Below, piece by piece: positions 141-17,438 of a stretch of 41,900 nt of DNA. Position 1 is the stretch's first letter; each line of letters starts with the position of its first letter. The translations under genes and the position numbers were made by a program. The notes beneath the pieces were generated by a model, which did no database searches, was not told the DNA's origin, and saw only the letters and a program-made list of their open reading frames with translations. Location: NCBI GenBank assembly GCA_004297335.1, contig SCUD01000099.1, positions 1 through 41,900 of the forward strand. Reading direction: 5' to 3'. This DNA is from Gammaproteobacteria bacterium. GTDB taxonomy: Bacteria; Pseudomonadota; Gammaproteobacteria; Steroidobacterales; Steroidobacteraceae.

Positions 141-147
141 GTACGAA

Positions 148-176
148 AATATATGCGAGTTTCTGACAAACTGCAA
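148..176 (-). promoter_or_regulatory. Promoter with overlapping operator for the antitoxin gene
   Basis: Read on the minus strand there is a -35 TTGCAG (171-176), a 17-bp spacer and a -10 TATATT (148-153). The ATG follows 7 bases after the -10, so transcription should start at or next to the start codon and give a leaderless mRNA. An inverted repeat, AGTTT-CTGAC-AAACT (158-172), extended by TGC/GCA with a one-base bulge, fills the spacer and touches the -35. A repressor bound there would block RNA polymerase, which fits the autoregulation known for AbiEi antitoxins. No binding is shown by sequence. Confidence 0.6.
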
Positions 177-488: not shown

Positions 489-841
489 TGGTGGAGGCGG
501 CGGGAATCGAACCCGCGTCCGCAAGCCCTACGCTACAGAATCTACGTGCGTATCCAGCCTATTGATCTCGCCTCAGGCTACCCGGCGGGCGGGGAAAACC
601 TGGGGCCAGCTCAGGAGCGTTTTAGCGGTTCCAGCCCGGAGCACACCGGTCCCGCGATCCTGTGAGCGCGTCCCCCGATTTGGTCGCACAGGCACGGACC
701 AGTCGGAGGTTAGGCGGGATTAAGCCGCCAGAGCGTAGTTGTCGTCGTTGGCAACTAAAGTTTGCAAGCTGATTTACGAGGTCGCCTGCACCTCGGCACG
801 CATCTGGAGTTTCGCAGCCCACGTCGAAGCCGATCGCCCCC
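489..841 (-). ncRNA. ssrA: Transfer-messenger RNA (tmRNA, SsrA)
   Basis: This RNA rescues stalled ribosomes and adds a degradation tag to the unfinished protein; its partner SmpB is the next gene upstream. The 5' end GGGGGCG (minus strand, from 841) pairs with CGCCUCC before ACCA at 489-492. The T-arm GGUUCGAUUCCC is present near the 3' end, and the CCA is encoded. The tag frame at 752-720 reads ANDDNYALAA followed by TAA, a typical proteobacterial tag ending in ALAA. The length of about 353 nt is normal for a one-piece tmRNA. A terminator follows at once, and an extended -10 promoter sits 13 bases upstream of the mature 5' end. The 3' end of this gene is a frequent target for phage and island integrases, relevant to the antitoxin gene beyond it. 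Confidence 0.97.
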
Positions 842-865: not shown

Positions 866-1342
866 TCAGCCGCGCCGGCTGGCTTTCATCACCCGCGCCT
901 TCTCGCGCTGCCAGTCGCGCTCGCGCAGGTCGCTGCGCTTGTCGTGCTGCTTCTTGCCGCGGGCGAGGCCGATCTCGAGCTTGGCGCGACCCTTCTTCCA
1001 GTACACCGCGAGTGGCACGAGCGTCGCGCCCTTGCGCTCGACCGCGCCGACGAGCGCGTCGATCTCGCGCCGGTGCAACAGCAGCTTGCGACTGCGGGTG
1101 GGATCCGGGACCCGGTGGGTCGAGGCGGTTGGCAGCGGCGACACGTGCGCGCCGACCAGCCAGGCTTCGCCGTCCTTCAGCAGCACGTAGCCCTCGGCGA
1201 TCTGCAGGCGTCCGGCGCGCAGCGCCTTCACCTCCCAGCCCTGCAGCGCGATCCCGGCCTCGAAACGCTGTTCGATGAAATAGTCGTGCCGCGCCTTGCG
1301 GTTGAGGGCGATGGTGCTGGCGTGTTCGGCGGGTGCGGGCAT
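866..1342 (-). CDS. smpB: SsrA-binding protein SmpB
   Basis: SmpB binds the tRNA-like domain of tmRNA and delivers it with EF-Tu to stalled ribosomes. The 158-residue product has the family landmarks: [20 protein letters not shown] near the N-terminus, [29 protein letters not shown], and the basic tail with [16 protein letters not shown] that enters the empty mRNA channel. The length matches the family (about 155-160). The start ATG at 1340-1342 has no Shine-Dalgarno sequence, and a TAGAAT -10 box ends exactly 6 bases before it, suggesting a leaderless transcript. The gene is codirectional with ssrA just downstream and divergent from ratA, the usual gammaproteobacterial arrangement. Confidence 0.97.
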
Positions 1343-1348
1343 CGGGGC

Positions 1349-1354
1349 ATTCTA
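1349..1354 (-). promoter_or_regulatory. -10 box for smpB, leaderless spacing
   Basis: The minus strand reads TAGAAT followed by six bases (GCCCCG) and the smpB ATG. A transcript starting 7 bases after the -10 would begin on the start codon. No convincing -35 hexamer is seen at 16-18 bp. Confidence 0.5.
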
Positions 1355-1368
1355 TCTGCTGCGGGCGG

Positions 1369-1397
1369 TTGTCCGGGCGCCGGCGCTCGGAGACAAT
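1369..1397 (+). promoter_or_regulatory. Promoter for ratA, leaderless spacing
   Basis: TTGTCC (1369-1374), a 17-bp spacer and GACAAT (1392-1397) form a sigma-70-type promoter. Six bases then separate the -10 from the ratA ATG at 1404, so the predicted start of transcription is the start codon itself. It diverges from the smpB -10 box 15 bp away. Confidence 0.55.
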
Positions 1398-1403
1398 CGG
1401 CCG

Positions 1404-1841
1404 ATGCACGAGGTCCGACGCAGTGCGTTGCTGCCCTATTCCGCCGGCCAGATGTACGGGCTGGTCACCGACGTGACGCGCTATCCCGAGTTCCTGCCGT
1501 GGTGTACGGCCTCCGAACTGCTGGCGGAGGAGGGCGAATTCGTGACCGTGCGGCTCGGGCTCGCGCGCGGACTGGTGCGCGGCAGCTTCACGACCCGCAA
1601 CCGGCTGGTGCCGGACCGCACCGTCGACATGCGCCTCGTGGACGGGCCATTCAGCCTGCTCGAGGGGCGCTGGGACTTTCATTCGATCGGTGACTCCGGC
1701 AGCCGGGCGGAGCTGACCGTCCGTTTCCAGCCGCGGGGCCTGCTCGGGGCCCTGACGCTGGGCACGGCTTTCGAGGGCATCTGCAACCAGATGGTGGATG
1801 CCTTCGGCCAGCGCGCCCGCTCGGTGTTCCGTGCCCGCTGA
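1404..1841 (+). CDS. ratA: RatA, START-domain (Coq10/RatA family) protein
   Basis: RatA is a small START/SRPBCC-fold protein. In E. coli it has been described as interfering with 70S ribosome assembly, while homologues (Coq10) bind ubiquinone; which role applies here is not visible. The 145-residue product begins MHEVRRSALLPYSAGQMY, aligning end to end with E. coli RatA, and contains DVTRYPEFLPWC, TTRNRL, MRLVDGPFSLLEGRW and the C-terminal helix FEGICNQMVDAFGQRA. An upstream in-frame ATG at 1296 would overlap smpB and the promoter, and is rejected on alignment. The gene overlaps ratB by 11 bp, so the two are likely translated together. Confidence 0.93.
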   Translation: MHEVRRSALLPYSAGQMYGLVTDVTRYPEFLPWCTASELLAEEGEFVTVRLGLARGLVRGSFTTRNRLVPDRTVDMRLVDGPFSLLEGRWDFHSIGDSGSRAELTVRFQPRGLLGALTLGTAFEGICNQMVDAFGQRARSVFRAR

Positions 1842-16476: not shown

Positions 16477-16776
16477 TCAAGAATCTGGAAGAAGAATATT
16501 CTTTAACTTATTGTTTTTCTTGTAGAACAAACCTACATTTCCAATCTCATGGATCAGTTCGGCGCCAGCAGCCGCCGCCATCCGCGCCAGGGTCTCCCGA
16601 CGTTCGTCGCGGCCACCGATGCGGGCCCGCACCTTGATCAGTTCATGGTCATGCAGCGCGCGCGCGAACTCCGCCTGCACGTTGTCGGTCAGGCCGCGTT
16701 GTCCGATGAGCACGACGGGTCGCAGCGCATGGCCGAGGCGTCGCAGGTACTTGCGCTGGTGGTCGCTGAGCGGCAT
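16477..16776 (-). CDS. yhbY: YhbY, CRM-domain RNA-binding protein (ribosome assembly)
   Basis: YhbY is a one-domain CRM protein that binds pre-50S particles. The 99-residue product begins MPLSDHQRKYLRRLGHALRPVVLIGQRGLTDNV, with the GxxG loop (GQRG), continues with ALHDHELIKVRARI, and ends GNVGLFYKKNNKLKNILLPDS. It aligns throughout with the 97-residue E. coli protein, which fixes the start at 16774-16776. A perfect TATAAT -10 ends 6 bases before this ATG with no Shine-Dalgarno sequence, so a leaderless message is likely. Its last 70 or so bases are strikingly AT-rich compared with the rest of the gene. It is divergent from rlmE, the usual arrangement. Confidence 0.95.
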   Translation of the reverse strand: MPLSDHQRKYLRRLGHALRPVVLIGQRGLTDNVQAEFARALHDHELIKVRARIGGRDERRETLARMAAAAGAELIHEIGNVGLFYKKNNKLKNILLPDS

Positions 16777-16782
16777 CCGCGC

Positions 16783-16788
16783 ATTATA
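16783..16788 (-). promoter_or_regulatory. -10 box for yhbY, leaderless spacing
   Basis: The minus strand reads TATAAT, six bases (GCGCGG), then the yhbY ATG. No -35 match is present at normal spacing. The -10 is a perfect consensus, and the same 6-base distance occurs at smpB and ratA. Confidence 0.6.
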
Positions 16789-16814
16789 GGCCGGCGTCCC
16801 GCCGGAGGCTGCCG

Positions 16815-17438
16815 ATGAGTCGCCGCAGCCGTTCGAGCGGCCGCTGGCTGCAGGAGCACTTCGCCGATCCATTCGTCCAGCGGGCTCGCATGCAGGGCGC
16901 GCGCTCGCGCGCGACCTTCAAACTCGAGGAGATCGACCGCCTCGAGCGCCTGCTCGCGCCCGGTCGGGTCGTCGTGGATCTCGGCGCCGCACCCGGTGGC
17001 TGGAGCCAGTACGCGGCCCGCGTACTCGGCGCCCGCGGGCTGGTCGTCGCGCTCGACCTGCTGCCGATGGACGAACTGCCCGGGGTGAGCTTCCTGCAGG
17101 GGGACTTCCGCGATCCGGAGACGGTGGTCAGGCTCGAAGCGCTGCTCGGCGGGCGGCCGGTGGACCTTGTAATGTCCGACCTGGCCCCCAACATGACCGG
17201 TGTGGATGTCGTGGATCAGGCCCGGGCCGAGGAACTCGGTGAACTCACCCTCGGTTTCGCTGGTCATATTCTGGCCCCGGGCGGCGCGCTGCTGATGAAG
17301 GTCTTCCAGGGCGCTGGTTTCAACGCGTTGCTCGCCGATGCGCGCCGCCGCTTCGCCAGCGTGAGGATCCGCAAGCCCGCGGCCTCGCGCCAGCGCAGTG
17401 CCGAGACGTATCTGGTGGCGAGGAACCGCCGGGAGTAG
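16815..17438 (+). CDS. rlmE: 23S rRNA 2'-O-methyltransferase RlmE (FtsJ/RrmJ)
   Basis: RlmE methylates U2552 of 23S rRNA in the 50S A-loop using SAM. The 207-residue product shows the K-D-K-E tetrad of the family: Lys36 in RATFKLEE, Asp in [10 protein letters not shown], Lys in ALLMKVFQG and Glu in SAETYLVA. The SAM-binding [16 protein letters not shown] lies near residues 52-67. The ATG at 16815 has GGAGG six bases upstream. ftsH follows after 79 bp, the conserved rlmE-ftsH pair. Confidence 0.97.

Follow-up and report, generated by a model that had tools for sequence, protein, structure and literature searches.

The genes smpB, yhbY and, less surely, ratA of the host, a Steroidobacteraceae-like gammaproteobacterium, are very probably leaderless, judging from a -10 box that ends exactly 6 nt before each start codon, and the genes with this 6-nt spacer (N6) constitute a minor genome-wide class in the host. 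The three genes are contained in the window, the whole stretch of 41,900 nt that was analysed (Table 1). Established promoter geometry puts the transcription start site at the A of the AUG when the -10 box ends 6 nt ahead of it. From this box position, RNA polymerase would start at the A of the AUG or within 1-2 nt of it, the smpB, yhbY and ratA mRNAs would carry neither a leader nor a Shine-Dalgarno (SD) sequence, and initiation would take place on the 5'-terminal AUG by a 70S or otherwise SD-independent route, as expected for the class of leaderless mRNAs. The same reading of the start site from such a box is made in passages of a 2011 survey (Zheng et al., 2011; PMC3160421), and 70S or SD-independent translation is given as established for the class in the relevant part of PMC5397173. 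Transcripts with a leader could come in addition from another promoter further upstream.

Table 1. Start signals and genes discussed, with their positions in the window.
Feature	Position	Strand	Remarks
-10-like box TATATT of the antitoxin-like gene cut by the window end	148..153	-	7 nt before ATG at 140
ssrA (tmRNA), directly 3' of smpB	489..841	-	tag ANDDNYALAA; ARAGORN
smpB, SsrA-binding protein	866..1342	-	NF003843 218 bits, TIGR00086 176.8 bits, PF01668
-10 box TAGAAT of smpB	1349..1354	-	ends 6 nt before ATG at 1342
-35 box TTGTCC of ratA	1369..1374	+	17 nt ahead of GACAAT
GGAG, possible weak SD sequence of ratA	1389..1392	+	11 nt from ATG, overlaps GACAAT
-10 box GACAAT of ratA	1392..1397	+	ends 6 nt before ATG at 1404
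ratA, polyketide cyclase/lipid-transport fold, Coq10-like	1404..1841	+	PF03364
yhbY, CRM-domain ribosome assembly RNA-binding protein	16477..16776	-	PF01985; TIGR00253 67.4 bits, below the cut-off of 78.5
-10 box TATAAT of yhbY	16783..16788	-	ends 6 nt before ATG at 16776
GGAGG, SD sequence of rlmE	16804..16808	+	6 nt before rlmE ATG
rlmE (ftsJ), divergent from yhbY, control gene	16815..17438	+	PF01728

On re-reading of the sequence, the three boxes, their coordinates and their 6-nt spacers are as the initial annotation described them, and so is the 7-nt spacer of the antitoxin-like gene. The pattern TAnAAT-N(0-20)-ATG is found at only two places in the window, both with N6 and both at genuine gene starts. 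The start codons, which had been taken from alignment with E. coli homologues, also hold. The smpB start is fixed by the frame, because its -10 box contains an in-frame stop codon, TAG, four codons ahead of the ATG, and a scan of the frame down to codon 12 shows no alternative start codon; the SmpB N-terminus is variable among orthologues, which start at the expected residue in 10 of 50 cases. The yhbY and ratA starts are at the expected residue in 35/47 and 30/31 orthologues, respectively, and RatA starts at the counterpart of Met14 in the annotated ORF of Escherichia, as read from the E. albertii locus. The claim that none of the three genes has an SD sequence stands for smpB and yhbY, where the 30 nt upstream of the start contain nothing resembling an SD sequence, and is less clear for ratA, where GGAG is a possible weak SD sequence. 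The genes smpB and ratA are divergent with a gap of 61 bp, and yhbY and rlmE are divergent with a gap of 38 bp; rlmE shows an ordinary leader signal.

The host genome (3.96 Mb, 187 contigs) was searched as a whole for TATAAT, TACAAT and TAGAAT (TA[T/C/G]AAT) followed by ATG after 0 to 20 nt. This pattern is present at 99 places: 25 have the N6 spacer and the next highest spacer has nine (binomial p about 5e-12, uncorrected for the 21 spacers). The genome-wide enrichment of -10 boxes 6 nt before starts, proposed earlier as a check, is thus present. By hexamer, N6 accounts for 9 of 17 places with TATAAT, 6 of 41 with TACAAT and 10 of 41 with TAGAAT. A frame of at least 60 aa is opened by 21 of the 25 ATGs at N6 and by 27 of 46 at spacers outside 5-8, a comparison that covers 86 of the 99 matches. 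With N15 as the control for N6, since both keep the same codon phase, the host shows 26 TANAAT-N6-ATG places against two TANAAT-N15-ATG. GACAAT followed by ATG is found at 158 places of the host genome with no visible N6 peak among the matches listed, at least four of which are at N6 by eye, and GACAAT is not supported as a genome-wide leaderless box. Regarding the -35 region, none of 21 members of the N6 set has four or more of six matches to TTGACA, no more than shuffles have, and in another score the N6 group is below shuffles (40 against 47.2, a score equalled or exceeded by 492 of 500 shuffles). The deficit is small in the TTGACA-match score and the N9-20 group is alike, so no -35 signature is claimed.

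The N6 excess is not restricted to the host. In 59 genomes TANAAT shows 1573 places at N6 against 934 at N15, N6 being larger in 55 genomes, equal in one and smaller in three. The own genus (seven genomes including the host) contains 153 against 32, with N6 larger in 7/7; 29 others of the family contain 656 against 332 and 23 others of the order, 764 against 570. For the class, 274 genomes were compared for TATAAT at N6 and N15 and binned by their background of the reversed pattern. The 88 genomes with the lowest background show 325 against 152, two middle groups of 57 genomes each show 388 against 316 and 916 against 803, and in the 72 genomes with the highest background the two counts are equal (2571 and 2552). 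At class level the N6 excess is clear where the background is low, and there only.

Conservation was followed in orthologues, whose starts were chosen by rule (nearest in-frame start, ATG preferred). The strict box rule takes a hexamer 5-8 nt before the start that retains A2 and T6 of TATAAT and differs from it at no more than one position; the wide rule adds [T/G]ANAAT, since the strict one excludes GACAAT. Counts for the order include the host. They cover smpB at 50 of 53 places, the 31 ratA genes present at these 50 loci, and the 37 rlmE genes present at the 47 yhbY loci. Relatedness is ignored in the Fisher and shuffle figures, and the shuffles keep single-base make-up only. Within the order, yhbY has a strict box in 25/47 loci, 16 of them at exactly 6 nt (mononucleotide shuffles, 0.35), smpB in 13/50 (0.33) and the control rlmE in 1/37 (0.25). 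Under the wide rule the counts are 26/47 for yhbY, 13/50 for smpB and 3/37 for rlmE (shuffles 0.36, at most 3). Outside the order, yhbY was read under the strict rule in 68 of the 75 class genomes with a match other than G000 and G020; two of the 68 have a box, and one of these two is very A+T-rich upstream; the difference between 25/47 and 2/68 gives a Fisher p of 2e-10. In G003, which belongs to the same genus as the host, the yhbY box is far upstream of the start. On a YhbY tree, 41 of the 47 order sequences fall in one clade of 45 rows, which has weak support, and 24 of the 27 leaderless-like genes fall in it too (24/45 rows in the clade, 3/70 among the other rows). This tree is weak (99 columns), and on it 14 changes are required to explain the trait, compared with 16.4 when the labels are shuffled (81 of 500 shuffles as low), so that no significant clustering of the trait is seen. 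A single origin of leaderless yhbY is unsupported, at least 14 changes being needed. Judging from these distributions, the leaderless-like yhbY is recurrent in the order rather than fixed, and appears to have been often gained and lost.

For smpB, a set of named records was also used (80 loci, 79 usable for smpB and 66 for ratA), which is not independent of the order set, since the two overlap (e.g., L190 and L005, L242 and L032). A strict smpB box is found in 24 of the 79 records, 18 at exactly 6 nt (shuffles 1.37), and the carriers include Ectothiorhodospira, Sedimenticola, Thiodiazotropha, Fontimonas and Hydrocarboniphaga. Cultured relatives have the smpB geometry: the box is present in Ectothiorhodospira shaposhnikovii DSM 243 and Fontimonas thermophila DSM 23609. 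Two further observations concern smpB itself. One genome of the same genus contains a second, diverged SmpB match (G001:C83:2648-3088; 58% identity), and four genomes of the family (G004, G005, G008 and G032, two of them at least 98% complete) show no SmpB match at E 0.001, which is either a contig gap or a true absence.

The gene ratA shows a different picture. The arrangement TTGTC[C/G]-17-GACAAT is found in seven of the eight loci scanned (L003-L009, and not L010) and makes a convincing candidate promoter. The distance from GACAAT to the ratA start is 6 nt in the host and 21 to 25 nt in its six nearest relatives, whose leaders would be 15-19 nt longer; in five of these six, a GAGG or GGAGG is visible by eye within the leader. 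At other loci of the family GACAAT is again 6 or 7 nt before ratA (L028, L032, L299, L302 and L310), GGAG not being present at these loci (by eye), and other boxes lie close to the start: TACAAT in L309, GAGAAT in L297 and TATAGT in L017. At ratA, one TTGTCC-17-GACAAT promoter, common to the host and six near relatives with longer leaders, would thus give a leaderless mRNA in the host, and the box is again 6-7 nt from the start elsewhere in the order. From these sequences, the ratA leader length appears to change among relatives, and the leader state would switch even with the same promoter. Strict boxes are found at 2/31 ratA genes of the order and 0/66 of the named records, and wide boxes at 9/31 (shuffles 0.22, at most 2) and 7/66 (0.77). 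The N6 peak, the same-phase excess and the position of the box in orthologues support leaderless starts well at yhbY and smpB, and the support is weaker for ratA. ratA is held less certain than smpB and yhbY because GACAAT has no genome-wide N6 peak, and it is the least sure of the three because GGAG overlaps its box and the six nearest relatives carry 21-25 nt leaders. smpB and yhbY show a TANNNT about 6-7 nt before the start, and GACAAT of ratA is, strictly, not a TANNNT. As a separate observation, TTGTC-N18-GACAA is a perfect dyad between smpB and ratA (window 1369-1397), kept in L003-L009, so that the -35 and -10 boxes of ratA read as reverse complements of each other.

The 25 N6 places found with TA[T/C/G]AAT include 18 genes with a family match, three frames without a match and four frames shorter than 60 aa, which are probably chance. 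The 18 matched genes, several of which are assigned by matches below the curated NCBIfam cut-off, are SmpB, YhbY, the tRNA-modification enzyme TtcA, a group of regulators or antitoxins with four members (a histidine kinase, a MarR regulator, a Phd-type antitoxin and a protein kinase carrying a receiver-like domain) and eleven others. The latter are metK, purE, and genes for a dihydroorotate dehydrogenase (DHODH), a cysteine desulfurase-type protein and a RarA-like ATPase, together with PHA synthase-type (PhaC), Nudix, epimerase-type, decarboxylase-type, PepSY and DUF4160 proteins. The initial annotation considered smpB, ratA, yhbY and the antitoxin ribosome-related or regulatory. The ribosome theme is not borne out: the N6 set is mixed, mostly metabolism, repair and regulation, and only SmpB, YhbY and TtcA are ribosome-linked among the 18. 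RatA is described as a Coq10 homologue in PMC11988751, which ascribes its toxicity to an artefact of a mis-annotated longer form. A coordinated leaderless set of ribosome factors is therefore unsupported, and the apparent theme arises from the choice of window. In passages of the 2011 survey (PMC3160421), leaderless genes are less likely to belong to the translation category and more likely to belong to transcription. It is improbable that the leaderless starts of yhbY, which encodes a 50S assembly factor, and of smpB, which acts in ribosome rescue, were selected as a control loop, in which 70S translation without 30S-SD recognition would keep assembly and rescue factors made when free subunits or initiation factors run short or SD-dependent initiation is limited. 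Such a loop, if true, would account for the recurrence of the trait at yhbY and its near absence from the divergent rlmE, and it is less likely because ratA, which is no ribosome gene, recurs as well.

The antitoxin-like gene at the window end has a paralogue elsewhere in the genome (locus L002) with the same TATATT-N7-ATG. This paralogue is a full DUF6088 protein (PF19570), with a sub-threshold AbiEi match. The window segment 1-497, from the antitoxin-like gene to the ssrA 3' end (489), shows an 84% identical copy on another contig (L002:1501-1966; G000:C183), and no tmRNA is found at that copy within the locus examined. The segment looks like a mobile island joined to the ssrA 3' end. In L002:1800-1829, GTAAGAAA and TTTCTTAC lie on either side of the TATATT box and form an inverted repeat across the promoter, which may serve as an autoregulatory operator; the copy in the window (141-171) is diverged.

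Why the arrangement exists is a question distinct from whether these mRNAs are leaderless, and there is a little less than an even chance that it is a by-product of compaction, in which short divergent gaps squeeze promoters against starts and the leaderless mRNAs have no selected role in translation; this explanation is compatible with the leaderless reading. Within the order, 19 leaderless-like yhbY-rlmE pairs have a median gap of 38 bp and the 18 other pairs one of 74 bp (p 0.005); 54 pairs from outside the order have a median of 117.5 bp. These shorter gaps make compaction a live explanation of origin. The lability of the trait on the YhbY tree and the variation of ratA leader length among near relatives with one promoter agree with it. 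However, the smpB-ratA gap is not significantly different (median 76 in nine pairs against 95 in 55 pairs; p 0.18), the gap is 60-80 bp at six of the 19 leaderless-like yhbY genes, and at yhbY the exact 6-nt spacer predominates (16/25).

The leaderless reading itself would be replaced if the boxes were minor or unused promoters, the main transcripts coming from upstream with ordinary leaders, or if ratA used GGAG as an SD sequence. This is unlikely, even though a consensus sigma-70 promoter scan reports none at the smpB, ratA and yhbY starts, GGAG is present at 1389-1392 and a leader of 21-25 nt is seen at ratA in the six nearest relatives: the distance from box to start is kept in divergent orthologues while neighbouring bases change, a longer leader of smpB or yhbY would be SD-less too, given the 30 nt upstream of their starts, and GGAG is missing, by eye, at the other loci with GACAAT near ratA. 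Chance, i.e., A+T-rich hexamers near a few starts, is scarcely credible. The window alone offers three cases, one of which is not TAnAAT, and would be compatible with it, but it is contradicted by the genome-wide N6 peak, the same-phase control and the conservation in orthologues.

The leaderless reading of smpB, yhbY and ratA relies on a mechanism known from other bacteria, and what appears new, as far as literature searches go, is the repeated presence of leaderless-like smpB, ratA and yhbY in these gammaproteobacteria. Among the passages on leaderless genes retrieved with smpB and yhbY by name, and with ratA not by name, none reports a leaderless start of these three genes in a gammaproteobacterium. 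Genes that are widely conserved and well understood, and whose relatives differ in having a leader or none, would provide a natural experiment on leader function, and they are a warning for gene callers relying on SD signals. In the passages of Zheng et al. (2011) (PMC3160421) that deal with leaderless (TA-led) genes, a TANNNT about 12 bp upstream of the start is read as their -10 box, and smpB and yhbY are like these genes in the position of the box. The same passages report leaderless genes in only 15 of 239 gammaproteobacterial genomes and do not name yhbY, smpB or ratA, whereas here these particular genes recur, in another gammaproteobacterial group. The same gene yhbY in E. coli has, according to the relevant part of PMC5230787, a mapped leader of 31 nt with an SD motif, unlike the host gene. 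In the part of PMC11988751 that concerns E. coli ratA/pasT, the true start of RatA is Met14 of the annotated ORF, like that of RatA here, and the gene is described with a sigma-70 promoter whose -10 box is inside the annotated ORF, upstream of Met14. In E. albertii ratA, no -10 box stands 6 nt before Met14 and the nearest -10-like hexamer is 29 nt before it, whereas the host shows GACAAT at 6 nt.
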